Shown: piece by piece, positions 972 to 24,854 of the stretch | How the letters are laid out: every line of letters begins with the position of its first letter | Position numbering within the stretch: position 1 is the first letter of the stretch | Origin: a virus | Direction: 5' to 3' (one strand) | Virus record (IMG/VR): IMGVR_UViG_3300008113_001198 | Span: 1 to 28,109 of that record | Length of the DNA: 28,109 nucleotides | The notes under the pieces: generated by a model | Database searches by the model: none | The model's input: only the letters and a program-made list of their open reading frames with translations | Told to the model about the DNA's origin: nothing | Program-made: the position numbers and the translations under genes

Positions 972-972
972 A

Positions 973-9105: not shown

Positions 9106-9114
9106 GTCAATTCC

Positions 9115-10704
9115 TTAAAGAACAGCCCACGACGAGCCTGACGGCACCGTAACCGTGACGCCAGAGGCCACCGAGATCGGGCCAGAGGACATCCCGTTGT
9201 TGCCGGCGGTGATCGAATAGTTGGCCGAAATCGTGGCGCTATTTTCCCACAGCCCCAGCGCCGTGATGTTGCTGCTGCCCCCAGACGCCGCAGCCCACTT
9301 GAGGCCCGTAGCCGTGGTCGAGTCGGCCGTCAGCACCTGGTTGTTCGTGCCCACGGCCAGCCGCACGTTGTCCGTGCCGTCGAACCCGATCAGGTCGCCC
9401 TTGGTGGTCAGCGGCGACAAGGCGTCAAACGCCGCCGTTTGAGTGGTCTGGCCCGTGCCGCCGTTGGCGATCGCCACCGTGCCAGTCACGTTGGCCGCAG
9501 TGCCCGTGGTGTTCTGATTGAGGGTTGGGAAATCGCCCGCGACAGCAATCGTCAGCGCGCCAGTCCCTGTCGTGGACTTTAGGATGCCAGTTGCCAGCGA
9601 ACTAGTGCCAGCCGAGTAGTCGGTGCCCGCCGTGGCCGCAGAGATCGCCGTGCCGTTGCCCTTGAGCACCCCAGTCACGCTGGTCGTGAGCGTCAGGGAC
9701 GGCGTTGTGCCGCCGCTAGAAGTGCCCGCAAACCCGTTGGCCGTCGCCACAGCCACCGAGGTCAGGTACGCTCCTGCCGGCTGCTTGCTGTTGAACGTGC
9801 TCCAGTCGGTGCTGGACAGGTAGCCGTCGGCGCTGGACGTAGCGACCGGTATACTGAGCGTAGGGGTTAACCCTCCCGTAGACGCCAGCGGGGCCGAGGC
9901 GCCAACTGAACTGACGTAGCTCAGGGCCGGCACGTCGGCAGCAACTATTGTGCGGAAAGAAGGCACGCCAGCAGAGCCGTTGGGCGCGGCCAAGAACGTA
10001 TTGGCGCTCTGGGACGCGAAGTCCGACGGCGTGACGGCCAGCGTGCCGCCCAGCGTCAGGCTGCCCGAGGTGGTCACCGTGCCGGTCAGGGTCAGTCCGC
10101 TGACCGTGCCCGTGCCACTGACCGACGTCACCGTGCCCGAACCAGTGCCCGCGCCGATGGCCGTGCGGAACGTAGGCGCATCCATCGTGGTGATGCTGTT
10201 GTCCGCGTTGATCTGGACAAACGTGATGGCGCTGGGGTTACCCAAGGTGAAGAAGTTAGCCCCCACCGTCGTGGCGCCGAGCGACGTGCGGCCCGTGGCG
10301 GCCACAAGGTTCGTGGCCCCGCCGTCCCACTGCAACCGCTCCGAATAAGCCGTGTCCCAATTCGTTTGGCTTGCAGTGGTGGGGATAGAGTAACCAGCCG
10401 TATAAGTGACCGCCAGCGTGCCGGCCGTGGTGACCGGGTTGCCGGAGACGGACAGCCCCGTGGGCACCGTCATGTTGACCGAGGTCACCGTGCCCGAGCC
10501 GCCGCCCCCACCACCACCGGAGTCTGGTATCGGCGGAGGGCCGACTTGCAGGTCGTCTAGCGACGTCTGGTTGCCGCCGTTGCCGGCAAGGTTGAACAGG
10601 TTGAGAAAAAACCGATACCACTCACGCGACACCATCCCCGTGCGCGGATCAATGATCTCGACACGGTTAGAGGGTATGTTGGTGATATTTTGCTGTTCAG
10701 GCAT
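9115..10704 (-). CDS. Large fibre-like tail protein in the P22 gp26 position
   Basis: A 529-residue protein. The N-terminal 45 residues (SNRVEIIDPRTGMVSREWYRF and the following FLNLFNLAG) look like a virion-anchoring domain. A Pro/Gly linker follows (PPPIPDSGGGGGGGSG). The rest is a Gly/Thr/Val-rich repetitive shaft with repeated GTVTSV-type motifs. Two modules are shared with other genes here: the GTVAIANGGTGQTTQ unit with the glycine-rich gene at 17193-18348, and the last 43 residues with the gene at 3754-4431. It starts inside the end of the gp10-like gene (8-base overlap), where P22 has its tail needle gene, so it may be the distal tail fibre. No needle or tailspike catalytic motif was seen. 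Confidence 0.75.
   Translation of the reverse strand: MPEQQNITNIPSNRVEIIDPRTGMVSREWYRFFLNLFNLAGNGGNQTSLDDLQVGPPPIPDSGGGGGGGSGTVTSVNMTVPTGLSVSGNPVTTAGTLAVTYTAGYSIPTTASQTNWDTAYSERLQWDGGATNLVAATGRTSLGATTVGANFFTLGNPSAITFVQINADNSITTMDAPTFRTAIGAGTGSGTVTSVSGTGTVSGLTLTGTVTTSGSLTLGGTLAVTPSDFASQSANTFLAAPNGSAGVPSFRTIVAADVPALSYVSSVGASAPLASTGGLTPTLSIPVATSSADGYLSSTDWSTFNSKQPAGAYLTSVAVATANGFAGTSSGGTTPSLTLTTSVTGVLKGNGTAISAATAGTDYSAGTSSLATGILKSTTGTGALTIAVAGDFPTLNQNTTGTAANVTGTVAIANGGTGQTTQTAAFDALSPLTTKGDLIGFDGTDNVRLAVGTNNQVLTADSTTATGLKWAAASGGSSNITALGLWENSATISANYSITAGNNGMSSGPISVASGVTVTVPSGSSWAVL
9280..9483. repeat. Fibre module shared with 18057-18260
   Basis: Encodes about 68 residues starting GTVAIANGGTGQTTQ and containing TTKGDLI and NQVLTADST. 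The copy at 18057-18260, in the glycine-rich gene, is similar along its whole length. Confidence 0.75.
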
Positions 10705-12142
10705 TGGTCGGCGACATGATCAGTTCGGCGTCCATGATAGCGAGCTTGACAGGGTCTGTGCCCGAAATCTCATACACACGGTCACGCAGCTTTAGCGTCA
10801 TGCCCAACCGCCGCCAAAAAACGCGGCGGTAGTATTCACCAATCTTGCCTACGGGCGCCCAATACTCGTTAGACCAAGTGTGGCCGCCGTCGTCCGACCA
10901 GCGCAGCATCATCTGAGGGTTGCTGCCTTGGCCGGTGTTGGTGCCGACGCCTGTTTCACAATCGACTTGCAGGCTGTGGTGCGCGGTCCTTTTGAGGGTG
11001 TTGGTGCCGGGCGGCAGTGCCCGCCACGAACGCAGCCACTTCTGGATGTCGCCGTTGTCAGCGTACTCGTTCAGGTCGAAGGCGTAGATGTTGCCGTTCT
11101 CGAAGTCGCCGACAACGATCTGGTCGTCGTAGACCGCCTGGCAGTTAGACCGATGGCGCACAAAGTTGCCGTTAGACCAGCCGGCCCGCTCGTGCCAGGC
11201 TTGGGTCGCCACGTCGTAGACCCAAGTGGTCTGGGCGCTCGGAAAAATCAGCACGTAGAAGGCGTGGCCGTCTTGCTGGTAGGTGTAGCCGATCGCGTCC
11301 GACAGGTTGCCGTACTGCTGGATTTGCCACTCAATCGCATGGGTCGAGATGCGTGTGCCGGTGTAGCCGTTGGCGCGGTAGACGATGCCTCGGCCGCGAG
11401 CGTCAGACCCCAGCCAAAACAGGCCGTTGTCGAGCTTGGCAACCGAGTACGGGGCAGCGCAGCCGATCTCGTTGAACGCGCCTTGGATGCGCTGCAACGG
11501 GAAGTCAGGCAGGCCCGCGTCGTACCAGACCTCGATCGAGTTGGTGCCGAACAGCCACGCCTCGCGGTGATCGACGATCAGCGACACCAAGCCGTCCGGG
11601 TCGCCCTCGGCGCTGGCGAAGTCGAGCGGATCGACGGACAAGCCGTCGAGCAAGGACGTCACCCACACCCGCGCGCTGTTAGGTTCGTTGAACACGAAGT
11701 AGCCGTCAAGGTAGCCCACCTTGACCGCGCCGGGGAAATCCGGGTCAGTGATCTTAGCGAACACCTCAGTGGTCGCGTTGTAGATGAAGCCGTCGGGGTT
11801 GCAGGCGATGAAAATCTGCGTGCCGTTGTCCGATATGGACACCGGGCCAGTGCCTGTCACCGTGCCCAAAGGCTTGATCTTCCAGCGAGTCGTGTCGCCG
11901 ATCACGTTGAGCCGGTAGAACGTGTCGCCTGAAACGGCGTACAGGTACTCCTTGAGCACCCACAGCCCACGGATCGGGCCGCTGCCGGCCGCAACCAGCC
12001 GGCGCAGGCCAGGGCAGCGCGACAGAAACGCCGCGCTCTTGCCGCCCTCGGGCACGATCTCGGGGTACATGTTGACCATGCGGTTGTCCGCAGCGTTGAC
12101 GCTGCGGGCGACGTAGCTGGAACCTAAGATCGGCGTTTTCAT
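10697..12142 (-). CDS. Packaged-DNA stabilization / head-tail plug protein (P22 gp10-like)
   Basis: A 481-residue protein matching the phage-stabilisation family of P22 gp10, which joins the portal-gp4 ring to the tail needle and helps hold packaged DNA. The start reads MKTPILGSSYVARSVNAADN, then RMVNMYPEIVPEGGKSAAF, a typical N-terminus; repeated beta units (GLWVLKEYLYAVSGDTFYRL; AWLFGTNSIEVWYDAG) follow the propeller-like pattern of the family. P22 gp10 is about 472 residues. The ATG at 12142 shares one base with the preceding stop (TGATG); an in-frame TTG one codon earlier is less likely. It follows the gp4-like gene, as in P22. Confidence 0.88.
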   Translation of the reverse strand: MKTPILGSSYVARSVNAADNRMVNMYPEIVPEGGKSAAFLSRCPGLRRLVAAGSGPIRGLWVLKEYLYAVSGDTFYRLNVIGDTTRWKIKPLGTVTGTGPVSISDNGTQIFIACNPDGFIYNATTEVFAKITDPDFPGAVKVGYLDGYFVFNEPNSARVWVTSLLDGLSVDPLDFASAEGDPDGLVSLIVDHREAWLFGTNSIEVWYDAGLPDFPLQRIQGAFNEIGCAAPYSVAKLDNGLFWLGSDARGRGIVYRANGYTGTRISTHAIEWQIQQYGNLSDAIGYTYQQDGHAFYVLIFPSAQTTWVYDVATQAWHERAGWSNGNFVRHRSNCQAVYDDQIVVGDFENGNIYAFDLNEYADNGDIQKWLRSWRALPPGTNTLKRTAHHSLQVDCETGVGTNTGQGSNPQMMLRWSDDGGHTWSNEYWAPVGKIGEYYRRVFWRRLGMTLKLRDRVYEISGTDPVKLAIMDAELIMSPTNA

Positions 12143-12825
12143 CAATAGTTGCCGGCGTAGATGTTGAACCGCTGCCGCGTCGCAATCAGCGAGTACGGCA
12201 TCGACATCACATCGTCAGGGTTGTTGATGCGCTTGAGGTTGCGCTTGCTGGTCATGGCAATACGCTGCACTTGAGGTGACGGCTCGACGCCAAACTCTGG
12301 CGCAAGCTCGCAAGCCAAGTTATACGTGAAGGCCCGCAGGTAGCCTGGCGGGAAAAGAATCTCAGTGACCAACTCAGCCGGCTGCGTTAGCTCTTGCACG
12401 CTGATGAAGTGCCACTCCAGCAGCCGTGTCGGGCGCGGGTAAATGTAGATGTCGAAGTTCGGGTAGGTGTTGTTGACGAACATCACCTGCGGAAAGGTCG
12501 AGGTCACGGTCTTGACCGCAATGCCGTCGTACTGCTGCTGATTAATCAGCTTGATGCCGTAAGACACGCCTGTGCCGGGGTCTTTGAAGCGCACCAAGGA
12601 GCCGCTAGGGCCAAGGGTTTCGTTGATTGAGCCAACCGGCCAGTTGACGATCTGGTCGATGGTGGCAAAGACAGACAACCGCTCGGTGTTCCACGAGTCG
12701 ATCATCTGGTTGAGCGCCATCAAGGCGTCTTGAGACACAACGGCCGACGGCGTTTCGCTCTCGGCCAGCACACCTAGCAGCCGCAACGCCCGGTTAATCT
12801 GTTCGCCTGCGGTGTAGGTCGCCAT
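12142..12825 (-). CDS. Head completion / tail accessory protein (P22 gp4-like)
   Basis: A 227-residue protein resembling the P22 gp4 family, which binds the portal ring after packaging and forms the platform for gp10. The N-terminal helices (AGEQINRALRLLGVLAESET, then ALMALNQMIDSWNTERL) and a conserved middle (FDIYIYPRPTRLLEWHF) fit the family. P22 gp4 is shorter (about 166 residues), but longer relatives are common. Its RBS (GAGGA) lies within the end of the preceding gene. No muramidase motif was identified here, though P22 gp4 itself has been reported to have such activity. Confidence 0.85.
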   Translation of the reverse strand: MATYTAGEQINRALRLLGVLAESETPSAVVSQDALMALNQMIDSWNTERLSVFATIDQIVNWPVGSINETLGPSGSLVRFKDPGTGVSYGIKLINQQQYDGIAVKTVTSTFPQVMFVNNTYPNFDIYIYPRPTRLLEWHFISVQELTQPAELVTEILFPPGYLRAFTYNLACELAPEFGVEPSPQVQRIAMTSKRNLKRINNPDDVMSMPYSLIATRQRFNIYAGNY

Positions 12826-12826
12826 G

Positions 12827-13015
12827 CTATTCCTCTTGGATTAAAACGTCCTTAATGCGCCGGCTGCGCCGCGCCACAGGCTCGGGGCTGACTTCTTCAA
12901 CTTCTGGTTCAAGATTGTACCTTGACCAACCGTTCTGGAGGTCAAGTTCAGCCTCGATGTCCATCGTAGCGACTTTGGCGCCGTGGACAGGATGGGTTAG
13001 GTAGATTGCTGCCAT
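12827..13015 (-). CDS. Small conserved phage protein, unknown function
   Basis: A 62-residue protein starting MAAIYLTHPVHGAKVATMD and ending in an acidic then basic tail (PEVEEVSPEP, then RRSRRIKD). I recall short proteins with the same THP-HG-KVA opening next to capsid genes in other phages, without an assigned role. Its last codons supply the ribosome site of the gp4-like gene two bases downstream. Its own leader has no obvious Shine-Dalgarno motif. It follows a hairpin, so it may be expressed less than the capsid genes before it. Confidence 0.65.
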   Translation of the reverse strand: MAAIYLTHPVHGAKVATMDIEAELDLQNGWSRYNLEPEVEEVSPEPVARRSRRIKDVLIQEE

Positions 13016-13021
13016 GTGTAG

Positions 13022-13050
13022 AAACGGAGCCGAGATTGTCGGCCCCGTTT
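13022..13050 (-). terminator. Hairpin after the decoration-gene cluster (possible attenuator)
   Basis: A 12-bp stem (13022-13033 with 13039-13050) and a 5-base loop. On the minus strand it has one G-U pair. No clear U-run follows on the minus side, only a short T stretch, so termination would be partial; on the plus side TTTAGTTTT follows. It separates the 13055-13468 gene from 12827-13015. Confidence 0.55.
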
Positions 13051-13054
13051 AGTT

Positions 13055-13468
13055 TTACAGTACGTGAATCACCGCAAAGTTGATCACCACGGCCTCGGAC
13101 AGCGAACCGCCCGAAAGGTTGCGTAGGGTGATCGTGCAACTTCCGGTAGCCTTGCCAGAAATCCAGCAGTTGTAGGCGCCAGCAGTAGCACCGGAAGACA
13201 CGCTCAACACCACAACGTCTTTAGCGCCGATAACGCTGTTGGTCAGCGTGAACGAGACGTTCGTGGCGTTAGCCAGAGCGGCGTTGTTCATCGTAATCTG
13301 ACCAGCGGACTTGTTCAAGGTCACGCCCGTCGATTTGTCAGTCAATTGCGTGACCGTACCACTCGCTTCTGCGGTGTAGCCCAGCTCACCACCAGACAGC
13401 ACTGAGTCAGACCCAATGATGTTCTGGTCTTCAAAAGCCACACCAATTGGTTTGGTATTGGAGGACAT
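13055..13468 (-). CDS. Capsid-associated (decoration-like) protein with Ig-like strands
   Basis: A 137-residue protein. The start at 13468 (MSSNTKPIGVAFEDQNIIG) is chosen because AGGA lies six bases before it; an upstream in-frame ATG at 13534 would run back through a terminator and into the previous gene. The first 50 residues include SGGELGYTAEASGTVTQLTD, and the rest alternates small and hydrophobic residues (SFTLTNSVIGAKDVVVLSVS) as in a beta sandwich. Its place right after coat and another decoration-like gene, with its own terminator-flanked unit, suggests an abundant capsid-surface protein. This is inference. Confidence 0.75.
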   Translation of the reverse strand: MSSNTKPIGVAFEDQNIIGSDSVLSGGELGYTAEASGTVTQLTDKSTGVTLNKSAGQITMNNAALANATNVSFTLTNSVIGAKDVVVLSVSSGATAGAYNCWISGKATGSCTITLRNLSGGSLSEAVVINFAVIHVL

Positions 13469-13480
13469 AGTGTTTCCTTT

Positions 13481-13505
13481 AAAAACAGGGGGCCGAAGCC
13501 CCCTG
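13481..13505 (-). terminator. Rho-independent terminator with UUCG tetraloop
   Basis: On the minus strand: an 8-bp G/C-rich stem (CAGGGGGC with GCCCCCTG, 13486-13505), a TTCG loop, and immediately TTTTT (13485-13481). It lies between the two decoration-like genes, so transcript beyond it is probably reduced. Confidence 0.8.
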
Positions 13506-13509
13506 GCTA

Positions 13510-13908
13510 TCACGAGATGCGGTAGCAGGTCCAAGAACCGTCGCCGGTCTTGCGGGCACGGAAGTGGCCCGAGGTAGTTTCAGTCACAACCATGTTGCCG
13601 ACCAACGTCCAGCCCGTGGCCGTAGCCACAGTCACGTCGTCAGTGCCAGCATCAATGTTGATGACGAAGAAGTCAAACGCAGCGTTCACTTTAGACGCGC
13701 TAGAAACGTCAGCCTCCAGGTCTGCCACGGTGGGCAGAGTCAGGTTGCCGGCGGTGCCGTTGAAGGTGAACAGGCCGTTTGCCAGTTGAGCAGCCGTAGC
13801 GGTAGCTGCGGCGGTCAGTGCAGTCGGGGCACCCTGAACAAACAGTTGAGCTTCGCCGACGTTGCCGTCGCCAATCTGGTAGCCACCAGCGCCATTAGGA
13901 AGAGCCAT
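13510..13908 (-). CDS. Capsid-associated (decoration-like) protein
   Basis: A 132-residue protein starting MALPNGAGGYQIGDGNVGEA, followed by Ala/Thr-rich text and a regular strand pattern (FFVINIDAGTDDVTVATATG, then a C-terminal WTCYRIS). I remember similar proteins directly behind P22-like coat genes, where they are thought to be structural, but I cannot name the family. Its ribosome site AAAGGA precedes ATG by a usual distance. Hairpins lie on both sides (13940-13953 and 13481-13505), making it a separate, tunable unit of the head operon. The GC-rich loop-sequence repeats around it are described separately. Confidence 0.72.
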   Translation of the reverse strand: MALPNGAGGYQIGDGNVGEAQLFVQGAPTALTAAATATAAQLANGLFTFNGTAGNLTLPTVADLEADVSSASKVNAAFDFFVINIDAGTDDVTVATATGWTLVGNMVVTETTSGHFRARKTGDGSWTCYRIS

Positions 13909-13922
13909 GATAAATTCCTTTC

Positions 13923-13953
13923 AAAAAAGTTACGAGAACGGGGCCGAAGCCCC
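13923..13953 (-). terminator. UUCG hairpin after the coat gene, weak terminator
   Basis: On the minus strand GGGGC-TTCG-GCCCC (13953-13940), then 11 bases, then TTTTTT (13928-13923). The distance to the T-run makes full termination doubtful; the hairpin may instead stabilise the coat mRNA 3' end. Confidence 0.6.
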
Positions 13954-13959
13954 ATTCGA

Positions 13960-15168
13960 TCAGCCCCAGAGGCGAACGCCCATCTGAGGACGAATCACGC
14001 TGTAGCCGTACAGCACGTCAATACGGCAAGGCATACGGTCGTTGTTGATGTCGTACTGACGAACAACGCGCAGGCTGATGCCATTGTGAACGGCGCGGGC
14101 GGCCATGTCCACACCTTGCGGCAGGAGCAGGTCGGCGGTAGCGAAGGTGATCGCGTCCTTGTGGTAGACCAAGTTTTGAGCGTACTGGCTAGAAGCCGCA
14201 CCCACAAACACCACGGCTTTGCTGTTCTGCGGCAGAACGTCCACAGTAGCCAGAGCATGGCTGGCCGAGTACATCGGGGCCACGGTGATGTTGCCGGCGC
14301 CAGAGCCGTTCAGGGTCACGTCAGCGGCTGCGACGAACTGGAACAGCGAACCAGTGGATTCACGGGTCTGCGGGTTCACAGCGAAGCAGTCAGCAACAGT
14401 GAACACGTCGCCGAGCTTGACGGTAGCGTTTGCACCGGCGCCGGTGATGGCGATGGTGGTGGCGCCTTCAGCGGTCACAGCAGCCGACAGCGAGCCGCCG
14501 GTAGCGGTGCGCGAGCCGGTGGTGAATTGCTTGATCGACTGAGACATGTTGACTTCTTCGTAGCCTAGCACGCCCAGACCCATCATGCCGTTCTTAAACT
14601 GCTTGCTGATGGTGTCGGTCGGGTTGAACAGGCCTTTCATGCCTTCAACCAAGCCAGCGTTGGCAGCCGGGTTGACGGTGGCGTAGCGCGGCGACATGAC
14701 CGCAGCGTTCTCGTTGAGCTTCTGCTGGGCTTGCAGCAGAACCAGCGAGGTAGCGGGCGTGGTGCCAGGCGTGCCGACGGTATTGCCGATGTACTTGTAG
14801 CTGTTTGCCACGTCGGCGTCGATGGACGAGGCCAACTGGCTAATACGAGGCTTCAAGACACGCTCTGCGAAGTCGTCCAACTGCATGGTCAGTTCGGCAG
14901 AGGTGAAGTTCACGCCGATGTGCTTCTGCGAAGAAACAGTCAGGGTGGTGAACTGCTCGTTGTCGTCCTGAACTTGCAGGGCCGCGCCGTCGGTGACCAG
15001 AGCGCGGTCAGGCAGACGGATACGCAGGGTCGAACCGATCTTGGCACCTTCAACAGCAAAGCTGTCGTCGTACTGACGGTTCACGTTACGGGTGAGCACG
15101 AGGTTGTTCTCCAGAATCTCCAGAGCCTTCCGCGTGATCATGTCAATGGTAAGAATGCTATTCGCCAT
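13960..15168 (-). CDS. Major capsid protein (P22 gp5-like coat protein)
   Basis: A 402-residue protein of the P22 coat family (HK97 fold). It starts MANSILTIDMITRKALEILE, then NNLVLTRNVNRQYDDSF and GAKIGSTLRIRLP, the conserved N-arm and E-loop region. Residues about 220-290 carry KLGDVFTVADCFAVNPQTRE, which falls in the inserted I-domain of P22 gp5. P22 gp5 is 430 residues, so the length fits. AAAGGA lies eight bases before ATG. It follows the scaffold gene as in P22 and is bounded downstream by a hairpin, as expected for the most abundant product. Assembly should need the scaffold encoded just upstream. Confidence 0.93.
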   Translation of the reverse strand: MANSILTIDMITRKALEILENNLVLTRNVNRQYDDSFAVEGAKIGSTLRIRLPDRALVTDGAALQVQDDNEQFTTLTVSSQKHIGVNFTSAELTMQLDDFAERVLKPRISQLASSIDADVANSYKYIGNTVGTPGTTPATSLVLLQAQQKLNENAAVMSPRYATVNPAANAGLVEGMKGLFNPTDTISKQFKNGMMGLGVLGYEEVNMSQSIKQFTTGSRTATGGSLSAAVTAEGATTIAITGAGANATVKLGDVFTVADCFAVNPQTRESTGSLFQFVAAADVTLNGSGAGNITVAPMYSASHALATVDVLPQNSKAVVFVGAASSQYAQNLVYHKDAITFATADLLLPQGVDMAARAVHNGISLRVVRQYDINNDRMPCRIDVLYGYSVIRPQMGVRLWG

Positions 15169-15189
15169 GATGCGAGTCCTTTCAAAGTT

Positions 15190-15981
15190 TTAGCGGTTCA
15201 TTTGCGCTTGCAGCTTCTTCATCTGCCGGGCACGTTCAGCTTCAATCCAGTCCGACGTACTCATGGCCTTCACAGAGCGAGGGTCAGTCGTATCGTAGGA
15301 CGAGCTTCCGCTGGTTCGTGCGGTAACAGGCGAAATCGGTGCTGGCGCAGACGTTGTTGGTTTTACGATGGGATTGGTGCCAAGTTTGGCCTCAATCTTT
15401 CCAATCTCACGAGCCTGCAAAAGAGGTGACAGACGGGAAATGCGATCAGCTTCCTTCGGGTTGGTTCCCAGCCAGTAGGCTAGGTCCGGCCCCATGTCGG
15501 ACGCCTTGATTGTCTCGGCCATCACGTCGGTGACTCGAAGCTGCGGGTTGTAGGCGACTTGTTCAAAGTCGTCGTACTTGGCCCTGGCTTCTTCCTCACG
15601 CTCGTGATAGGCGTCGTTAATCTCAGCCTGCTGCTTCTGGAACTCACGCTGCGCGAGCAGTTCTTCGGCTTTTCTGACCGCCAACGCTTCCGCGTAGGCA
15701 TCAGGAGACTCGAAATGCTCGATAGGCGGGACTTCTTTCGGCGCTTGCGGTTGTGCAAGTTTTGCCTGCTGCTCACGTTCCCATTTGCGTTGCTCTCGGG
15801 CAAGGCGCTTGCTGATCATCGCATCGATCTCAGCCTGGGAAAATTTCTTCTCCTCGGGCGTCTGCTCGGGTTGATTCTCAGCTACTTCCGGCGCGTTTTG
15901 TGCACTTTCCGGGGCGGCCGTCGCCTCGGGTGCTGGCGCGGATTCAACTTCCGCTAAGGCTTGTTGGACTTCTTCAGTCAT
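15190..15981 (-). CDS. Scaffolding protein (P22 gp8-like in role)
   Basis: A 263-residue acidic, highly helical protein. The first 45 residues are Glu/Ala/Pro-rich and probably disordered; residues about 48-125 form a long charged helix (KFSQAEIDAMISKRLAREQR and on); the C-terminus ends in a basic helix (DWIEAERARQMKKLQAQMNR). In P22 gp8 a basic C-terminal helix-turn-helix binds coat protein, and this tail fits that role. It lies immediately before the coat gene. P22 gp8 is 303 residues. A protease domain is not visible, so scaffold is probably released whole. Confidence 0.82.
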   Translation of the reverse strand: MTEEVQQALAEVESAPAPEATAAPESAQNAPEVAENQPEQTPEEKKFSQAEIDAMISKRLAREQRKWEREQQAKLAQPQAPKEVPPIEHFESPDAYAEALAVRKAEELLAQREFQKQQAEINDAYHEREEEARAKYDDFEQVAYNPQLRVTDVMAETIKASDMGPDLAYWLGTNPKEADRISRLSPLLQAREIGKIEAKLGTNPIVKPTTSAPAPISPVTARTSGSSSYDTTDPRSVKAMSTSDWIEAERARQMKKLQAQMNR

Positions 15982-16031
15982 TTCATGTTCCGTAGGAACC
16001 CTGGTCTACTGGGCCAGTACAGTTTTTTACA

Positions 16032-16520
16032 TTATGCGCTAATAGACGCAACTTTATCTTGGAATGCTTTGACACGAGCTTGCAAAGCGGCTTCTTGTTC
16101 AGCCAAAACAGCAGCGCGGGCGTTCAAGTCTGCTTCTTTACTTGCCAGTGCGGCGGCCTTGGCGTCAGCAGCGGCTTCACGCTTGCCTACGTCGGCCTCA
16201 CGCCCAGCCAGCGTAGCGTTTGTGGTCTTAGCAAAATTAGCCGCTGCGCTCTGTTGGGCTTGAGCTTCTGCCAATGCGGCAGCAGCGTCAGATTGCATCT
16301 GAGCCGCTTCAGCTTGCACTTGAGCGGCAGTGGCGCGGGCCGCACTTAGCTCTTGCTTGGCTTTTTCACGATCAGCCGCAGCGTCTTGAACAGCGGACAA
16401 GGCGCCTTGACGAGCGGCTAGCTCGTCGCGCAGCATAGCCATGTTCGCCAAATCAATCGGTAGCTGCTTGGTGAAATACTCAACGTAGTTCAACGCAGGG
16501 GTGTCGTTGGAGACTTGCAT
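16032..16520 (-). CDS. Ala-rich coiled-coil protein upstream of scaffold, unknown function
   Basis: A 162-residue protein. The first 30 residues (NDTPALNYVEYFTKQLPIDL) are ordinary; residues about 35-160 are one long Ala/Glu/Gln/Lys helix with heptads (AAQVQAEAAQMQSDAAAALA; KREAAADAKAAALASKEADL). It has no membrane segment or known domain. It lies directly before the scaffold gene, so a scaffold helper or an internal head protein is possible. GAGG lies five bases before ATG. Repetitive Ala codons make it prone to internal recombination. Confidence 0.7.
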   Translation of the reverse strand: MQVSNDTPALNYVEYFTKQLPIDLANMAMLRDELAARQGALSAVQDAAADREKAKQELSAARATAAQVQAEAAQMQSDAAAALAEAQAQQSAAANFAKTTNATLAGREADVGKREAAADAKAAALASKEADLNARAAVLAEQEAALQARVKAFQDKVASISA

Positions 16521-16529
16521 TTTGACCTC

Positions 16530-16835
16530 TTAGGAGTAGTAAGTGACGTTGAGTTTTGCGCCGCTGACTTGCTCGATAAATTGAATCTGAGACAAGTCGC
16601 CATCGTACTGCAAAGTCACACCCGCAGCCAAGGGCATCCCAACACTTGCAGTCGGGGCAACATTGTCGTCGCGCCAACGAACGGCTTGGCCTTCGGGCGT
16701 GATGATTGCAATGCGGGGGGTGCCTACCAAGCCGCTTAAATCGCGCTTAGGGACCGTCAGTCGGGTAGCAGAACTCAAACTTGTAATCTGCTGGTAGCCC
16801 ATCACTGACGTGATTGCTTTGAGGTTGATCGCCAT
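16530..16835 (-). CDS. Small structural protein, unknown function
   Basis: A 101-residue soluble protein. MAINLKAITSVMGYQQITSL is followed by RIAIITPEGQAVRWRDDNVA and ASVGMPLAAGVTLQYDGDLS, a pattern I associate with phage proteins of unknown role next to capsid genes. Strand-rich and without charged clusters, it may be a capsid or connector component. TAGGAG lies seven bases before ATG. Its ATG overlaps the preceding tiny gene's stop (TAATG). Confidence 0.7.
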   Translation of the reverse strand: MAINLKAITSVMGYQQITSLSSATRLTVPKRDLSGLVGTPRIAIITPEGQAVRWRDDNVAPTASVGMPLAAGVTLQYDGDLSQIQFIEQVSGAKLNVTYYS

Positions 16836-16954
16836 TAAAATCTCCTACGTTCAGTAAATGACCGCAACTTGATCAAAAGTTGCTCAGTTGCTTGCACAAC
16901 GCCAGCAAAGAAACCGCCAGCAAAAAAATCTCCGCCAAAAAAAGGGCCGCCCAT
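16835..16954 (-). CDS. 39-residue FFGG-repeat micropeptide
   Basis: Starts MGGPFFGGDFFAGGFFAGVV and continues QATEQLLIKLRSFTERRRF. The Phe-Phe-Gly-Gly repeats would make it sticky or membrane-associated, with a basic amphipathic tail. Its TAA overlaps the next gene's ATG (TAATG), and it begins three bases after the previous stop, so it fits the operon exactly; that is the main support. I have seen short FFGG-rich phage genes in this sort of position but know no function. No strong ribosome site is visible; translation may depend on coupling. Confidence 0.65.
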   Translation of the reverse strand: MGGPFFGGDFFAGGFFAGVVQATEQLLIKLRSFTERRRF

Positions 16955-16957
16955 AGG

Positions 16958-17185
16958 TCAATTTTCGCCGGTTTCTGGCGTATTTTCAACCACAAACTCC
17001 ATAACCCACACCTGTCGCCACACACCGTCAGCATCCTGCTGCGGCTCTTGCTCAACAGCAACCATGCCTGACTGGCGTGGCATAGGCGTTGGCATCACCA
17101 GCGGAATGCCTTCAGCTTGCAGCAGTTCGACGTTGGCATTGGCAGGAATGCTGCCGTCTGCATTGAGTAGAAATTGCTTTGGCAT
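16958..17185 (-). CDS. Small protein paired with the glycine-rich adhesin
   Basis: A 75-residue protein starting MPKQFLLNADGSIPANANVE, then LLQAEGIPLVMPTPMPRQSG, and ending in an acidic tail (EFVVENTPETGEN). Short proteins with the same opening follow glycine-rich tail proteins in other phages, as I recall; an assembly-chaperone role like that of tail-fibre assembly proteins is plausible but unproven. GAGG lies five bases before ATG. It follows the glycine-rich gene by seven bases. Confidence 0.7.
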   Translation of the reverse strand: MPKQFLLNADGSIPANANVELLQAEGIPLVMPTPMPRQSGMVAVEQEPQQDADGVWRQVWVMEFVVENTPETGEN

Positions 17186-17192
17186 ATCAACC

Positions 17193-18348
17193 TCAGAAGA
17201 ACGTCACGACACGGACATAGCCGTTACCGCCGTTACCACCAGCACCGGAGTTCACGCCGTGACCCGCACCGCCTCCACCGCCGCCGCCTCCGGGATAACC
17301 ACCATTGCCGCCATTGCCTGCGGTAGTCGTTCCTGAGCCGCCAGAGCCGCCGCCATCACCTCCTACAAAATAAGTAATTGAATTAGAACCGTTGCCTCCG
17401 GAACCATTGGTAGTCCCTGCCGAACCGCCGCCAGTAGTCGTTGCGGTACTCGTTGAATTAAGTGCTCCGCCTAGACCACCAGAAGAGCCTGTTGACGCGC
17501 TTGTAGAACCTGCTTGAAAACCAGCACCTCCAGCGCCTCCACCTGCCCTATAACCGCCTCTACTTCCGGCTGATCCATTAAGGGAGGCGCCTGTTCCACC
17601 GCCTGCGGTATATTGCGTATTACTAAGTACAACCTCTCCAAGCCCACCGCCGCCACCGCCAGCAGAACCACTTGCAGTAGTGCCACCGTTACCGCCAAAT
17701 GCACCTCTAGCAAGACCCCAAGAACCAAAAGATGTATTACCGCCATCAGATGCGTTTTGCCCGCTTGTGTCGTCAGTAGTCCTAGCAGCTCCTCCGGTAG
17801 AACCGGCTCCAACAGTAACTGTTTCTGTAGAGCCAAGAGAGCTTGCAGGAATCCACAGTTCTGTACGACCACCACCTCCACCCCCGCCACCGCCAAATGC
17901 GGCTGTGCCAGATGAAGCCAAAGCTCGCCTTCGACCAGAACCACCACCGCCGCCACCACCGTACATCAGCACATAGACCAGCTTTGCCCCCGCAGGCTTA
18001 GTCCATGTTGATGTGCCAGTGCTAGTGAACTCTTGAATGTCTGCGCTGGAAATGCCACCGCCTCCAGTAGCCCACGCTACACCAGAAGCGGCAGTTGAAT
18101 CAGCCGTCAATACCTGCCCATTCGTACCAACGGGAACGCGCACATTGTCGGTTCCGTTGTTGGCGATCAGATCGCCCTTGGTAGTCGTTGGTGACAGCGC
18201 GTCAAATGCGGCGGTCTGTGTTGTTTGACCCGTCCCGCCGTTGGCAATAGCAAGAGTCCCAGTCAACGAATGGCTGGCGTCACGCAGCAGCGCCGGTGGC
18301 GCTAAACGTGCCGTCGGCGGGCGTTGAGTGGTTGACTGTTAAGGTCAT
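17193..18348 (-). CDS. Glycine-rich tail adhesin, reading frame broken near 18280
   Basis: The ATG at 18348 overlaps the previous stop (ATGA) and reads MTLTVNHSTPADGTFSATGA, then hits TGA at 18282-18280. The rest continues in another frame from DASHSLTGTLAIANGGTGQT to 17193. Adding two G's at the TGAC would read Ala-Trp-Asp-Ala-Ser and restore a single protein, so a 2-base deletion or sequencing error is likely. The rest has a module shared with the 9115-10704 gene, a strand pair (FTSTGTSTWTKPAGAKLVYV), then polyglycine runs (GGGGGGGSG and many GG pairs) to the end. Glycine-rich C-termini of this kind are known in phage adhesins such as T2/T4-type gp38, where they form a polyglycine sandwich that binds the receptor. 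If the break is real, a start at TTG 18266 could still make the main part. Confidence 0.75.
18057..18260. repeat. Fibre module shared with 9280-9483
   Basis: Encodes about 68 residues from GTLAIANGGTGQTTQ to ATGGG, similar to the unit in the large fibre-like gene 8.8 kb away. Confidence 0.75.
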
Positions 18349-18710
18349 GCCAGAAACTTGAGTTTGTACAGCGTGGTCAGGTACAGTTCGACAATATTAT
18401 CGATCAACTGCTGCAAAGTAGAGTCTTCTTTTTTCGCCACCTTGTAGCGCATCTCCTCGACCTCAGCCAGCGACGATTCGAGGAACTCGATGATGTTGGT
18501 TGTCTTCTTGGCCGAGTGCAGGCTGATCGGCCCGATAAGCCCGTGACGGCCTTGGTACGCCTCGGCAAACGCATCGGCGTGGTCGATGATGGTGTCGTAG
18601 AACGTGTTGAGCGCCACATGCTTAGAGTAGCTGCGCGTGTTCAGGTGCACCGAGTGGGCCACATCACGGGCCAAGAACAAGACGCCCATAAAGTTGGCGG
18701 CGGTGCTCAT
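18345..18710 (-). CDS. Dps/ferritin-like four-helix protein (possibly DUF5856)
   Basis: A 121-residue helical protein. Residues His19, His31, Asp46 and Glu50 have exactly the spacing of the E. coli Dps ferroxidase ligands (His51, His63, Asp78, Glu82); the position of Asp67 is Asn35. Around them IIDHADAFAEA resembles the LIDHLDTMAER helix of Dps, and HLNTR resembles its HWNMR, though that match needs a shift of three residues. I believe it belongs to a phage-borne family named DUF5856, but not with certainty. It starts inside the end of the portal gene (ATGA) and ends overlapping the next gene, so it is co-translated with head genes. It is shorter than Dps (about 167). Iron binding is inference; a helical portal partner is the alternative. 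Confidence 0.6.
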   Translation of the reverse strand: MSTAANFMGVLFLARDVAHSVHLNTRSYSKHVALNTFYDTIIDHADAFAEAYQGRHGLIGPISLHSAKKTTNIIEFLESSLAEVEEMRYKVAKKEDSTLQQLIDNIVELYLTTLYKLKFLA

Positions 18711-20860
18711 TGCATAGCTCCTTGGGGTGGCATCTCGGGCTGCATCTCAGGCATCTGCGCGTTCAAGTTGTTGCTTTCCATCGCAGCGGCCACGACGCCC
18801 ATAGCGATGTCTTGAATCTGCTGCTCGGTCATGCCGGCCTGCACGGCGCTGATGCGCTGCGTCTCGGCCTGGTACGCCTTGATCTCCGCCTCGAACTCCT
18901 TGATCGACAGATCACGCGCTTCCATCGACTTCTGCACGTTTTGCAACATGCCGGCCATCTGCTGCATCTCTTGGTTCATGGCCTCCATCTGCTGCTTGGC
19001 CGCTGCCAGCGCCGGGTTGTCCTCGTCGTCGCCAAGGATGGCCGGATCGATCACCTTGGCAAAGCGTTGCGACATTTCCTGAGCGCCCGGCCAGTCCATG
19101 TTCTTGACGAACAGGTCGCCAGCCACACGCCAGAGGTCTGGGTTGCCTTGCAGTAGCTGGGCCATTGCTTCACGCGACTCTTGGCGCTTGGTGGCAAAGC
19201 CGGGGCCAGTAATGACCATGACGTCATACTTGCCGACGCCGGGGTTGTAGATTTTCTCGACCACGATGCCCTGCTCGTTGACAATCTTCTTGACCGGCTC
19301 GGGCTGCATCGGGTTGATCTTGACCATCTTAGACTGGCCGTCCTCGCCGACGATGCGGGCGATGCGCTGCGTGTCGTAGATTTTCGGGATCAGGTCGATC
19401 AGTTGCCGGCCGATGTAGCGGATAAACCGAGCGTAGTTGTCCACGTAATGGTACGTGCCGGTGTCCGACTCACGCTGACGGGCTAGGATGGCCTTGCCGC
19501 TGCGCTCGTTGGACGTTTGGCCCAGCGAGGCGTTGTACTGGCCGGTCGTGTTCTTGATGTCATCAGACGCACCCATCTTGGCCTGAATCAGGCCGGTCTG
19601 CGGCAGCGGCGGGGCTGCGCGCTGGGGCAGCGGCAGCACGGCGCCTGCGCCGTCGGTGACGTCCGGGTTGACCTCAAGGTAGGGCCAGTTCTGGGTGTTT
19701 GCAGTCTTCCACTGCATCTCGTAACCCTCGAACTGACCGCCGTAGCCGATGAACGGCGCCTTGGGGGCCAAGGCCAGCATCTCGGCTTCTTGGCTCGTCC
19801 AGTAGTTGTACATGCGCTGCGCGTCTTTGGCGTTACGCACAAGGCCGCTGACGTACAGCCGGCCCTCAACCTCGAACTCGTTGCCCACGCAGCGCACCAC
19901 CGGGATGTGCGAACCGGCCCAGTCAGACCGCTCAAGCACCTCGTAGCCGTTGATTTTGAGCCACTTGACCTTCTTGCGGTCAGACGGGCGCGAGCGCAGG
20001 GGCTTGCCAAACTGCATCCGCAGCATCTTATCCTCGGGCGTGCCTTGGAACGCCGTGACATTGCCGGGGTACAGGTTGAGTGTCTCTTTGGTGTTCTCGA
20101 TGTAGAAATACTCGGCGATACGCACCGTGTTTTCGTTCATCCACTGGCTAAAGCCTTGGTCGCCCACGCCCAGCGTTTGCAGCGTGGTGATGGGCGCGGC
20201 GTCCGGGTACTGGCGCTCGTACTCGTCCTTAGGGATGTCCTCGGTGATGAAGCACCAACGAGCGTCAGAGCCGCACGGGTCTTGGATCAGCGGGTCCATG
20301 TAGACGCTAAACGAGTTGCGGATGCGCCCGATCTTGATGTCTTGGTCGAACGTGTTGTCGTCGCAATACTCGGTCAAGATGCGCGCGTAGCCCTCGCCGT
20401 AGGACACCTGGTTCTCGCAGGCGGTGTCGTAGGCCACGTCGGCGTCCGAGATGTACTCGATGTGCCGGATCATGCCGTTGAAGATTTCCGCTACCTCGAC
20501 GTCAGCGCCGTCGTCGGCCGGAATCACCTTGGGCTGCGGCCTGTTTTGCCGCTGCTCGTTGGTCACCTGATGGACGTGCTGCGGCAGCTTGTTGATGGTC
20601 AGGCACGGCCTGGCGTTGATCGTCTGGCCCTGCACCGCACCGCGAGTTGCCAGCACGTCGGCCGGCCACTGCCAGTGGTTGTCGGGCGAGCCGGCGTAAA
20701 AGCGCAGATCGTCTAGCTCGTCCTCACGCGACTCAGACAGCGCAGAAATCGCCATGTTCAGGCGGCTGCGGGCCGTCGAGAGCACCTCGGAGTCGCTCTT
20801 GTCCTTGGCCGAGCCGCCTTCGCTGACCGCGCCAGCAGCGGCGATTCCTGTGTAGTCCAT
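18707..20860 (-). CDS. Portal protein (P22-like)
   Basis: A 717-residue protein, close to the 725 of P22 portal. The core reads DDLRFYAGSPDNHWQWPADV, RPCLTINKLPQHVHQVTNEQ and WCFITEDIPKDEYERQYPDA, typical of the P22 portal family. It forms the dodecameric channel for DNA packaging at one head vertex. Residues about 618-668 are a Gln/Met/Glu-rich helix (KQQMEAMNQEMQQMAG) that corresponds to the C-terminal barrel of P22 portal. The final 20 residues are Met/Pro/Gln-rich. It lies upstream of scaffold and coat with other genes in between. Its stop overlaps the next ATG (ATGA). Confidence 0.93.
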   Translation of the reverse strand: MDYTGIAAAGAVSEGGSAKDKSDSEVLSTARSRLNMAISALSESREDELDDLRFYAGSPDNHWQWPADVLATRGAVQGQTINARPCLTINKLPQHVHQVTNEQRQNRPQPKVIPADDGADVEVAEIFNGMIRHIEYISDADVAYDTACENQVSYGEGYARILTEYCDDNTFDQDIKIGRIRNSFSVYMDPLIQDPCGSDARWCFITEDIPKDEYERQYPDAAPITTLQTLGVGDQGFSQWMNENTVRIAEYFYIENTKETLNLYPGNVTAFQGTPEDKMLRMQFGKPLRSRPSDRKKVKWLKINGYEVLERSDWAGSHIPVVRCVGNEFEVEGRLYVSGLVRNAKDAQRMYNYWTSQEAEMLALAPKAPFIGYGGQFEGYEMQWKTANTQNWPYLEVNPDVTDGAGAVLPLPQRAAPPLPQTGLIQAKMGASDDIKNTTGQYNASLGQTSNERSGKAILARQRESDTGTYHYVDNYARFIRYIGRQLIDLIPKIYDTQRIARIVGEDGQSKMVKINPMQPEPVKKIVNEQGIVVEKIYNPGVGKYDVMVITGPGFATKRQESREAMAQLLQGNPDLWRVAGDLFVKNMDWPGAQEMSQRFAKVIDPAILGDDEDNPALAAAKQQMEAMNQEMQQMAGMLQNVQKSMEARDLSIKEFEAEIKAYQAETQRISAVQAGMTEQQIQDIAMGVVAAAMESNNLNAQMPEMQPEMPPQGAMQ

Positions 20861-21335: not shown

Positions 21336-21593
21336 TCAGCACTTCCATCGTTTAAGTGACGCTTTGGCGCGTTCGCCATCTTTGGCTTTCTCAGCCACTG
21401 CGGACATTCTGGCACAGAAGGACGCCTTGCGGCCAGCGTCGGCCTTGGTCTTGGGGCTGGGCGCCGGCGGCTTGAGGTTGGAGCCGGTGGCTGCGTTGTA
21501 CTTGGCGCGGCCCTTGGCGGTCAGGCCCGCGCCCTTGCTGACGGGTAGCTTCTCGCCCCGCCCAACGCTAAGAGACACGCCTTTTTTCGCCAT
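21336..21593 (-). CDS. 85-residue basic phage protein (DUF6321-like)
   Basis: Reads MAKKGVSLSVGRGEKLPVSK, then GAGLTAKGRAKYNAATGSNL, SFCARMSAVAEKAKD and a final LKRWKC. GLTAKGRAKYN...TGSNL with FCARM and a terminal Trp-Lys-Cys is a conserved phage signature that I associate with a family of unknown function (DUF6321, from memory). Two cysteines at the conserved places could bind metal. The ATG at 21593 overlaps the terminase stop (TAATG); an in-frame ATG five codons earlier would lie inside terminase and is less likely. Confidence 0.75.
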   Translation of the reverse strand: MAKKGVSLSVGRGEKLPVSKGAGLTAKGRAKYNAATGSNLKPPAPSPKTKADAGRKASFCARMSAVAEKAKDGERAKASLKRWKC

Positions 21594-23122
21594 TACGCCC
21601 CCATCCATGAGGTTGAGACAGTACCGTAGCCCATCGACCGCGCGGTGCGCTGCTTGTCTTCGCGCATCTCGCGGTGCGCCACAGGGAAGGCAAACGTCAA
21701 CGCTATTGCATCGGCTGCGTCGGGGCTTGCCAAACCACGGGCTTTCATGTCCTTTTTGGACTCTAGGTAGATCGTACCACGAGAATCGGGCTTCATCTTA
21801 GGCGAAATCAGGTCAGACTTCAAGAACCTGTCGTTTGGCACGCTCGCCGACTTCAGCCAGTCGCGCATCTCACCCCAGATTTCCGCCCTCTTGTTGCCGT
21901 ACATGATCGGGTTCTTGGCCTTGTTGCCGAAGTTCACGCCCCTGATCTTGTACCGCTGCTCCTTGAGCCGGTCCACGACCCCTGCCCCTAGCCCGCCCTC
22001 GTCGATGTTGACCAGCGTCGGCTTGAACTCCTCGATCGCGTCGATGACGTGCCCGACCACCGTCATGGTGTCGTCGCCTCGGTGCCTAATCAGCTTCAAA
22101 ATGTCGCGCCCCTGACGCACGGCGATGACGGTCGCGTCCGCCCCGAACCGCGCCGGGTCTACACCCACCACGATCGGCGCCGATTCGTCCTTGTAGGGCT
22201 GCCGTTTCATCGCCGCGTCCACGATGCCGATGCTGATGAACTGGTCGTCGCCCTCGTTGGGGAACTGACCGTACACCTCGACGTGCGCTTGGCTGCTGTC
22301 CGGCCCGTATTCCGCGATGATCTGCTCATAGACCTGCTTGTCGGTGCCCTCAACCGTCCTTGCGTCCACAATTTTCGACTTCCAGAACTCGCGTTTGCTG
22401 TTAAACGCCTCGTAGAAGTACCCCGTGTTGCGGCGCGGGTTGGAAAACGCCAGCCAGAAGCGATTTGGCGTGTTTTCTGTGAAAAAACCGCTCGTCACGG
22501 CCCAGATCGAGTCGTCAATACCCGACGCCTCGTCAAAAATCACCATCACACCGTCGAAGTTGTGTACGCCAGCGTAGGCGTCAGGGTTCTCCGCCGACCA
22601 CAGCCGCCCCTCGACGCCCCAGTAGCGCGTGCCTTTTCGCAGATCGCGCTCGACTAGCTCAGTGAGCCACTTGGCCGGCATCAGCCTGGTCGCGCTGACC
22701 TCGAACCAATGGCTGTTAATCGACATCGCCAGCCACTTTGTCAGTTCGGCCCAGGTTATTGACCTTAACTGGCTCTCCGAGTTAGCCGAGATGATGGTCG
22801 TCGAGCCGATCCGCGTGGACAGCATCCAGTCCGTGATCCAACTGACTAGCGCCGACTTGCCGATACCACGGCCCGAACTGACTGCCAAGCGCAGCACGTC
22901 GAAGTCTAGACGGCCGCCGTTCTGCTTGATGTGCTCGGCCATAGTCGCGAGCACCTCGCGCTGCCACTTACGCGGTCCAGTGAAGTGCTCCAGCGGCGTG
23001 CCCTTGACGCCCCACGGATACGCGAACATCACGAACGCGAGCGGGTTGTCCTTGATGGCCGGCGACCACAGCCGAGCCATTAGCTCCTGTTCGTCCTGCG
23101 CGCTGTAGCGTGTGGTCTGCAT
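21593..23122 (-). CDS. terL: Terminase large subunit
   Basis: A 509-residue packaging motor. Walker A SSGRGIGKS is at about 82-90, Walker B VMVIFDEAS at 192-200 with the catalytic Glu. The C-terminal nuclease has an RNase H-like set of acids: Asp322 (GVDPARFGAD), Asp374 (NIDEGGLG) and Asp468/Asp471 (SPDAADAI). A complete ATPase plus nuclease and a normal length (about 500) indicate an active enzyme that cuts concatemers and pumps DNA through the portal. Its ATG shares one base with the stop of a 23-codon ORF, and it lies six bases after the small-subunit stop. Headful (P22-like) packaging is likely from the virion type but not shown. Confidence 0.95.
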   Translation of the reverse strand: MQTTRYSAQDEQELMARLWSPAIKDNPLAFVMFAYPWGVKGTPLEHFTGPRKWQREVLATMAEHIKQNGGRLDFDVLRLAVSSGRGIGKSALVSWITDWMLSTRIGSTTIISANSESQLRSITWAELTKWLAMSINSHWFEVSATRLMPAKWLTELVERDLRKGTRYWGVEGRLWSAENPDAYAGVHNFDGVMVIFDEASGIDDSIWAVTSGFFTENTPNRFWLAFSNPRRNTGYFYEAFNSKREFWKSKIVDARTVEGTDKQVYEQIIAEYGPDSSQAHVEVYGQFPNEGDDQFISIGIVDAAMKRQPYKDESAPIVVGVDPARFGADATVIAVRQGRDILKLIRHRGDDTMTVVGHVIDAIEEFKPTLVNIDEGGLGAGVVDRLKEQRYKIRGVNFGNKAKNPIMYGNKRAEIWGEMRDWLKSASVPNDRFLKSDLISPKMKPDSRGTIYLESKKDMKARGLASPDAADAIALTFAFPVAHREMREDKQRTARSMGYGTVSTSWMGA

Positions 23123-23193
23123 TACAGATCAAACAGCGGGCTGACGAGCCAGATGATCACTAGAAATAAGGCGATCCACAGAAGTATTTTCAT
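23122..23193 (-). CDS. 23-residue hydrophobic micropeptide overlapping the small terminase gene
   Basis: An out-of-frame ORF inside the 3' end of the small terminase gene. It reads MKILLWIALFLVIIWLVSPL plus three residues, one complete membrane helix. GAGG lies six to seven bases before its ATG, and its TAA overlaps the terminase large ATG (TAATG). The membrane-helix composition, the ribosome site and the coupled stop support translation; the short length means it could be chance. Possible roles are a membrane micropeptide or translational coupling of the terminase genes. Confidence 0.5.
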   Translation of the reverse strand: MKILLWIALFLVIIWLVSPLFDL

Positions 23194-23593
23194 TGATAGC
23201 CTCTACGTCGGTGACGTCCAGTACGCGGCGCTGCGCCTCCTGTAGCGCGGCCGTGATGCTGATTTGCTGGTTGACGTCCACACTGATGGCCTGCTTGGCG
23301 ACCCAGCCGTGGACGTTCTGCAAGATCGCCAGCGCCGCCTTGGCGTCGCCCTGCTGCGCTGCCTGGTGCAGCAACTCGCTCATCTCCATCTCGCCCTCGG
23401 CGCGGCCCTTGAGTTCGGCGTACTCCGCGATCTCGTCGAACTGCTTGAGTAGCTGGTACTCCTTGGGCAACATGCCGGCGGCCAACGCGAGAGCGTCGCC
23501 CTTGAGGCCGCGCTTGGCAGCCTTGTATATGCGATGGAGCCGATCCTCAGTCGCACGCAACTGACGCGGCTCATACGGCAAAGTCTCGAACAT
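23129..23593 (-). CDS. terS: Terminase small subunit
   Basis: A 154-residue helical protein. Near the N-terminus TEDRLHRIYKAAKRGLKGDA is followed by LALAAGMLPKEYQLLKQFDE, a helix-turn-helix-like DNA-binding part. The centre (AELKGRAEGEMEMSELLHQA, AILQNVHGWVAKQA) is typical of small terminase subunits in this group. It recognises phage DNA and feeds it to the large subunit. It is the first leftward gene of the late operon. No ribosome site is visible before ATG; a TATATT lies only six bases upstream, so the mRNA might be leaderless. Residues 135-154 also overlap the micropeptide ORF. Confidence 0.82.
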   Translation of the reverse strand: MFETLPYEPRQLRATEDRLHRIYKAAKRGLKGDALALAAGMLPKEYQLLKQFDEIAEYAELKGRAEGEMEMSELLHQAAQQGDAKAALAILQNVHGWVAKQAISVDVNQQISITAALQEAQRRVLDVTDVEAINENTSVDRLISSDHLARQPAV

Positions 23594-23628: not shown

Positions 23629-23836
23629 AAAGGTTTGGTGCTGTGGATTTCTAGCAAAAAATAAAAAGGTTTGCAGCCCCTCCGCTGCTGTGACCTTCAC
23701 CCCGTCGGCCCTCCCCCCCGGTCATGTGGACAATGTGGACAATGGTTTTGCAGTCGCTAGGCTTGCGTGCCTGCGCGCCGGTGTGGCGTGGACAATGTGG
23801 ACAATGGCCGGTCAAGCGCAAGGCTTGCGTAGGCGT

Positions 23837-23858
23837 GGGCGTGGGGCGTGGGCGTGGG
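23837..23858 (+). other. G-quadruplex motif
   Basis: Four G-runs of 3, 4, 3 and 3 bases, each separated by the loop CGT, at 23837-23839, 23843-23846, 23850-23852 and 23856-23858. It matches the G3+ N1-7 rule and sits two bases before a DnaA box. Confidence 0.6.
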
Positions 23859-23949
23859 TTTGTGGACAATGTGGACATGTGGACAATCGATTTTAAGTCG
23901 GTCAACCCCCTTTGCGGGCGTGCGGGCTGTCGGCGCGGCCCATTGTCAC

Positions 23950-23969
23950 TACTGTACATCCATACAGTA
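23950..23969. promoter_or_regulatory. LexA (SOS) box
   Basis: TACTGTACATCCATACAGTA matches the E. coli SOS box at 17 of 20 positions, with an intact CTGT-N8-ACAG core. It overlaps possible -10 elements on both strands (TATATT at 23968-23973 on plus, TATACT at 23971-23966 on minus), so host LexA could repress transcription here until DNA damage. Confidence 0.6.
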
Positions 23970-24063
23970 TATTTATCTCCCCATAAACCTATAAACTGAT
24001 AGTCCACATTGTCCACAAAGCCCATTTCCCCAATGGCGCGACGTGGACAATGCGCGCCCCGAA

Positions 24064-24085
24064 ACGTTGACCACACGTTGACCAC
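24064..24085 (+). repeat. Tandem 11-bp repeat (ACGTTGACCAC x2)
   Basis: Two exact direct copies within the origin-like region. Each contains TTGACCAC, a DnaA-box-like variant, so they may be iterons. Confidence 0.7.
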
Positions 24086-24119
24086 GATTGTCCACAATCC
24101 CGACTAAATTGTAAGGGTG

Positions 24120-24148
24120 TTGCATTGTGCAAAAGAATCCTTTATGAT
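24120..24148 (+). promoter_or_regulatory. Sigma70-type promoter for the rightward operon
   Basis: TTGCAT (24120-24125), a 17-base spacer and TATGAT (24143-24148). The -35 box is part of an inverted repeat (TTGCA-TTG-TGCAA, 24120-24132) that could be an operator. Transcription would begin near 24155 and leave a leader of about 40 bases before the ATG at 24195. Confidence 0.65.
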
Positions 24149-24194: not shown

Positions 24195-24854
24195 ATGCAA
24201 GTACATTTGACCCTCAAATCCGCCAACGTCAAAACTGGCCCGATTCCCGTCAGCACCACGTCAAAAGAGTCGTGCCCGACGGACTGCGCGATGCGCGACG
24301 CGTGCTACGCGGCCAGCGGGCCACTCGCGCTGCACTGGTCCGCCGTCACTGCCGGCCAACGCGGGACGGACTGGGCGACGTTTACCGGCCAAATCGCTGC
24401 GCTGCCCGACGGCCAACTCTGGCGCCACAACCAAGCGGGCGATTTGCCCGGCGACGGCGCGACAATTGACCCGGTCAAACTTGGCGAGCTTGTCGCTGCA
24501 AATCGCGGCCGTCGCGGGTTCACATACTCTCATTACCGCGACGGTGCATCGTTGTCGTGGATTCAAACGGCCAACGAATGGGGCTTTACCGTCAACTTGT
24601 CCGCAAACGATTTGCACGACGCGGACGCGTTGGCCGACACCGGCGCCGGGCCGGTCGTCGTCGTGCTGCCGTCAACTCAGACTAGCAACACCGAAACACC
24701 GGCCGGCCGCAAAGTAGTGATTTGCCCGGCCACACAACGCGACGACGTTTCCTGCGCGACATGCCAACTGTGCCAGCGCCAGCGCAGCACCATTGTCGGG
24801 TTCCCGGCTCACGGCTCGCGCCAGCGCGTGATTAACATCCGTTTGGCCGCGTAA
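24195..24854 (+). CDS. Cysteine-rich phage protein (DUF7227 / gp88-like), unknown function
   Basis: A 219-residue protein recognised as a family widespread in phages (DUF7227, from memory). It opens MQVHLTLKSANVKTGPIPVS. Cys27, Cys31 and Cys37 (CPTDCAMRDAC) and Cys177, Cys187, Cys190 and Cys193 form two groups that could hold a metal or Fe-S cluster. Between them RHNQAGDLPG and GFTVNLSAND suggest repeated beta-alpha units like a small TIM-type barrel. It is the first gene after the rightward promoter and next to the origin, so it may act early. The ATG at 24195 is chosen because the promoter lies downstream of the longer ORF's start at 24117. AAAGG is eight bases before ATG. Confidence 0.72.
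   Translation: MQVHLTLKSANVKTGPIPVSTTSKESCPTDCAMRDACYAASGPLALHWSAVTAGQRGTDWATFTGQIAALPDGQLWRHNQAGDLPGDGATIDPVKLGELVAANRGRRGFTYSHYRDGASLSWIQTANEWGFTVNLSANDLHDADALADTGAGPVVVVLPSTQTSNTETPAGRKVVICPATQRDDVSCATCQLCQRQRSTIVGFPAHGSRQRVINIRLAA

Follow-up and report, generated by a model that had tools for sequence, protein, structure and literature searches.

LexA control of phage genes is already known, and the phages concerned are few and mostly temperate, with a partner repressor. In the Bacillus thuringiensis phage GIL01, the P1 promoter is under the control of host LexA together with the phage protein gp7 (PMC4551915, PMC6182141), and host LexA is also reported to control a promoter of CTX-phi (Kimsey and Waldor 2009, as cited in PMC9437464). 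LexA-controlled antirepressors have been described in the Gifsy prophages (PMC3121763) and, as summarized in PMC9437464 from Kim and Ryu 2013, in SPC32H-type prophages. Lytic deferment mediated by the host regulators CtrA or Spo0A has also been described (PMC9437464). Among the papers covered by our literature search, none provided a direct precedent for a LexA box in a virulent or metagenomic phage. The box described here lies on the probable late promoter of a P22-like podovirus, which is an unusual placement, and we give a probability of roughly 0.55 to its being a host LexA operator that would hold down late transcription until the SOS response.

The window, namely the whole stretch of 28,109 nucleotides analysed here (IMG/VR virus record IMGVR_UViG_3300008113_001198), comprises most of a P22-like podovirus, including the portal, major head protein and head closure genes, and the record itself is probably incomplete. 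Leftward of the box the main genes are all on the minus strand, from the small and large terminase through portal, scaffold, head and tail to probable lysis genes, and these terminase, structural and lysis genes form a putative LexA-gated late operon (Table 1). Rightward lie short plus-strand genes, the DUF7227 gene first, followed by a minus-strand primase-like gene. Among relatives, the DUF7227 gene is more frequent where a LexA-type or degraded element is present (14 records) than where there is none (3 records). The nearest named relatives are DSL-LC05, a metagenome-assembled phage (PMC10611076) and the sole match in a near-DNA search among phages, and MW202483; the structural module is also common to P26218, a cultured lytic Rhodoferax phage (PMC4657236), at 34-47% identity.

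Table 1. Coordinates of the box and of neighbouring features in the window.
Feature	Position	Strand	Remarks
LexA-type box TACTGTACATCCATACAGTA	23950..23969	.	half-sites CTGT 23952-23955 and ACAG 23964-23967
Predicted leftward sigma-70 promoter TTTATA-18-TATACT	23966..23995	-	-35 at 23995-23990, -10 at 23971-23966
Predicted rightward promoter TTGCAT-17-TATGAT for accessory genes	24120..24148	+	counterparts in relatives; not overlapped by box
GTGGACAAT(G) repeats	23725..23887	.	direct orientation, left of box
GTGGACAAT(G) repeats	23999..24096	.	mostly inverted, right of box
Small terminase subunit	23129..23593	-	synteny; position matches annotated small subunit of DSL-LC05; first gene of leftward operon
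Large terminase subunit	21593..23122	-	phrog_2
Portal, scaffold, major head protein, head closure, tail, probable lysis genes	468..20860	-	order as in DSL-LC05
DUF7227 protein	24195..24854	+	phrog_2554; first rightward gene

The preliminary description of this DNA had claimed a 20-base LexA-like palindrome with an intact core, and this is borne out: TACTGTACATCCATACAGTA matches the E. coli LexA consensus TACTGTATATATATACAGTA at 17 of 20 positions, is the sole site in the window with at most three mismatches to it, and had no equivalent when the window was dinucleotide-shuffled 100 times. The intact CTGT-N8-ACAG motif also has a single copy in the window, at this position. With one mismatch allowed, the core is found 13 times in the window against 10.65 expected, which is chance level; the core alone is therefore no proof, and the extended 20-base match together with conservation provides the real test. 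A chance match as the origin of the box is ruled out by the shuffles and by the conserved half-sites in relatives.

Close terminase relatives were found in bins labelled Rhodoferax, Burkholderiales and Methylococcaceae, and Comamonadaceae-like bacteria are the likeliest hosts; since binning is weak evidence of a host, this assignment remains inferential. The 48 boxes of our host matrix come from lexA promoters in Comamonadaceae-like genomes, members of the family to which the Rhodoferax bin belongs. The comparison with the predicted host LexA motif that had been proposed for this box gives a score of 19.2 bits, within the range of the lexA boxes of this bin-inferred host group (median 21.2 bits, with 25% of the 48 sites scoring lower than the phage box), and the runner-up site in the window reaches 6.0 bits. 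The lexA promoters of the host family carry doublets of CTGT/CTGG-N8-ACAG/CCAG boxes about 19 bp apart, CTGG half-sites being common there too, and similar boxes are found in the recA promoters of four of these genomes. The CTGT-N8-ACAG type of LexA motif is reportedly general to beta- and gammaproteobacteria (Erill et al. 2007). In a phage contig of the Rhodoferax bin (L084), two overlapping LexA-like boxes lie 18 bp apart, some 240-280 bp to the right of the gene for the small terminase, an arrangement that resembles the host lexA doublets.

Relatives were gathered by their large terminase, and the region is present in 67 records, the window included. In 18 of these records (16 distinct), a CTG(T/G)-N8-ACAG palindrome occupies the same position, to the right of the small terminase gene and at a distance of 240-505 bp from it. 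Over the 16 distinct boxed relatives, a set first found via the palindrome itself, and hence subject to selection, and later anchored on the right half alone, mean pairwise identity reaches 0.94 in the CTGT half and 0.98 in the right half and falls to 0.48 in the spacer and 0.30 in the left flank; CTG and the right half vary little or not at all, and the spacer and left flank have drifted. Such conservation of half-sites around a varying spacer, found in a subset of the relatives, is the signature of a site putatively read by a symmetric dimer. An ACAG right half is paired with a CTGT or CTGG left half in 16 of 16 cases, and an ATAG right half in 3 of 10 (Fisher p=0.0002, for relatives that are not independent samples and with the omission of four right-half matches elsewhere in the region, devoid of a left half and judged to be other features); with those four included, the proportions are 17/21 and 3/10 (p=0.013). 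Two near-complete boxed relatives have one such box per genome; one boxed relative with a 123-base terminal repeat (G035) is probably complete. It is highly improbable that the conserved part is only the leftward -10 element and that the likeness to LexA boxes is incidental: conservation is highest in the right half, which holds this -10 and survives as TATATAGTA where relatives have no LexA box, but a promoter alone leaves the conserved left CTGT, with its drifting spacer, unexplained.

The -10 hexamer of the leftward promoter overlaps the right edge of the box, and the expected transcription start falls within it. The preliminary description had placed possible -10 elements on both strands. 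The leftward TATACT stands, as most boxed relatives have it too, with an unchanged offset; the rightward TATATT is not retained, since relatives show no -35 in a consistent position relative to it. The -35 signal of the leftward promoter averages 1.45 over the 16 boxed relatives, compared with -0.34 in composition shuffles (p=0.003), several of these relatives having no recognisable -35; in relatives without a LexA box, TACTAT is often retained at the -10 position. In the window the leftward promoter is a weak match to the consensus and lies about 370 bp from its first gene, that of the small terminase, and another promoter closer to this gene is possible. Directly before the small terminase start codon, a TATATT is present on the minus strand (23593-23610) with no clear ribosome-binding site, and may represent a second promoter or a leaderless start. 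The rightward promoter is situated approximately 150 bp from the box and has no box of its own; a placement of the box on this promoter is rejected by position.

LexA might also bind the box and act elsewhere, by controlling a short leftward RNA or the distant rightward accessory genes, or by blocking an origin. The long leader of about 370 bp, with its weak terminator-like hairpin on the minus strand (23688-23673), and the flanking repeats as possible origin iterons are in keeping with such roles; however, the stability of the hairpin region does not exceed that of shuffled sequences (z 0.16), the rightward promoter is distant and boxless, and no replication initiator is tied to the repeats, so that we regard this alternative as unlikely. 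The repeats lie on the two sides of the box in opposite orientation. In relatives, repeats are found at the same place, with a unit that differs by lineage (TTGGGTCAT, GGCAATGTA); the unit is CCCAGTGGGTCAG in the intergenic region of DSL-LC05 and GTTGTAGCAG in P26218, and the repeats of MW202483 are GTAAAC-rich. These lineage-specific repeats suggest hypervariable operators or iterons. As regards features of an iteron-type origin, repeats and an AT-rich stretch are seen. The earlier label of an origin, and with it a coupling of replication to DNA damage, has nothing in its favour beyond the surrounding repeats. Of the two couplings first proposed, late operon or replication, that of the late operon is the better supported, because the box overlaps the leftward promoter-like element and lies some 150 bp from the rightward promoter.

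The distribution of the box among relatives is patchy. A LexA-grade box is lacking in 49 of the 67 records; in 13 of these the element is degraded or different, and in 36 none was recognised. Two relatives counted as boxed (L004 and L005) obtain low scores with the host matrix. The terminase tree calls for approximately ten gains or losses of the LexA-type element, of which seven or more are forced by supported branches; the element is still clustered, being present in 8 of the 10 members of the window's own clade. Two records (L002 and L010) have a large terminase essentially identical to that of the window and a broken box, CTGTACA-CCATACTGTATAC or close to it. This break corresponds to a one-base deletion plus a substitution, in natural variants with a near-identical terminase. 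As most relatives, including these two, lack a LexA-grade box, the switch would be facultative, or the region would be exchanged as a module. In another set of records (L019, L023, L025, L027, L028, L076 and others), AGCTATATAGTATTAC occupies the position of the box, with a conserved centre and not conserved half-sites.

These replacements bear on the proposal that the box is the operator of a phage regulator from an undescribed family, LexA-like by coincidence. Relatives with other elements at the same spot, such as TATATAGCTATATA, with its conserved centre, in one group and a TTTCA...TGAAA palindrome in L083, give the appearance of an operator and its protein switching together, and many small genes are unannotated. 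Nevertheless, the likeness to host LexA boxes extends to the CTGG variant and to the overlapping doublet of L084, no S24 or HTH_3 protein was found, and no cluster of small genes is both confined to the boxed relatives and present in all of them; we therefore consider this proposal rather improbable. Searches of 24 records with profiles for Peptidase_S24, phage integrase and HTH_3 found nothing; eleven of these records measure 34-54 kb (nine contigs and two named complete genomes), and the same searches recovered their targets in control genomes. These profiles missed a gene of DSL-LC05 annotated as 'repressor protein C', and other kinds of repressor are thus possible. A phage-borne LexA or CI was thus not found with the S24 and HTH_3 profiles. 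Nor did the profiles reveal, in the 24 records, the S24-family or HTH_3 repressor and the integrase of a temperate phage of the lambda CI type, with its own SOS-cleavable repressor, the window being probably incomplete. A prophage state was also rejected: no integrase was found in the 24 records, and the matches to bacterial assemblies at 81% identity or more are short binned contigs with no clear integrations.

Thus, the reading of the palindrome as a host LexA box has gained from its conservation, from its match to the boxes of the likely host and from the lack of a recognised LexA- or CI-like repressor in the phages; its supposed origin setting is unsupported beyond the repeats. We infer that host LexA binds the box, which is well supported by sequence; promoter activity, late-gene repression and a delay of lysis are conditional on the mechanism that follows. 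The palindrome would be an operator on which bound LexA covers the -10 element and the start of the leftward promoter into the terminase, structural and lysis genes. Late transcription would then be held down in the undamaged cell, and lysis delayed, until RecA filaments, formed after DNA damage or an SOS response caused by the phage, induce the self-cleavage of LexA and the promoter opens. Only tentatively do we extend this to an apparently non-lysogenic podovirus lineage that delays its late genes via host LexA alone, by a switch readily gained and lost. If true, the timing of virion production would depend on cellular DNA damage instead of a phage repressor, and the viral output of lakes would be tied to UV and other DNA damage.

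Compared with described phages, DSL-LC05 (OR003940; PMC10611076) and P26218 (NC_029061; PMC4657236) share with the window the P22-like structural module, a similar layout and repeats in the same intergenic region, and differ in that no LexA box is found in either, nor in MW202483. GIL01, which has host LexA sites in a phage promoter and does not integrate, is comparable to the arrangement predicted here; however, it is temperate, its lysogenic/early promoter is the target of LexA and gp7 together, and its late genes are served by a LexA-like activator of the phage, whereas here a single site lies on what is probably a late promoter and we found no partner of that kind. In CTX-phi, as predicted here, a host LexA box overlaps a phage promoter, but this phage is filamentous. 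CTX-phi also has its own repressor, RstR. In Gifsy and SPC32H-type prophages a LexA box ties the phage switch to SOS, as proposed here; in those prophages the protein under LexA control is an antirepressor, whose target is a phage repressor, and here we found neither of the two. CtrA- or Spo0A-mediated deferment involves other regulators (of the cell cycle and sporulation) and other phages, and resembles our proposal in that a host regulator delays lytic steps outside classical lysogeny. In this common group of freshwater phages without recognised lysogeny genes, the box appears as the only recognisable damage-sensing element, and near-identical natural variants with and without it make an SOS-gated 'lytic deferment' directly testable.
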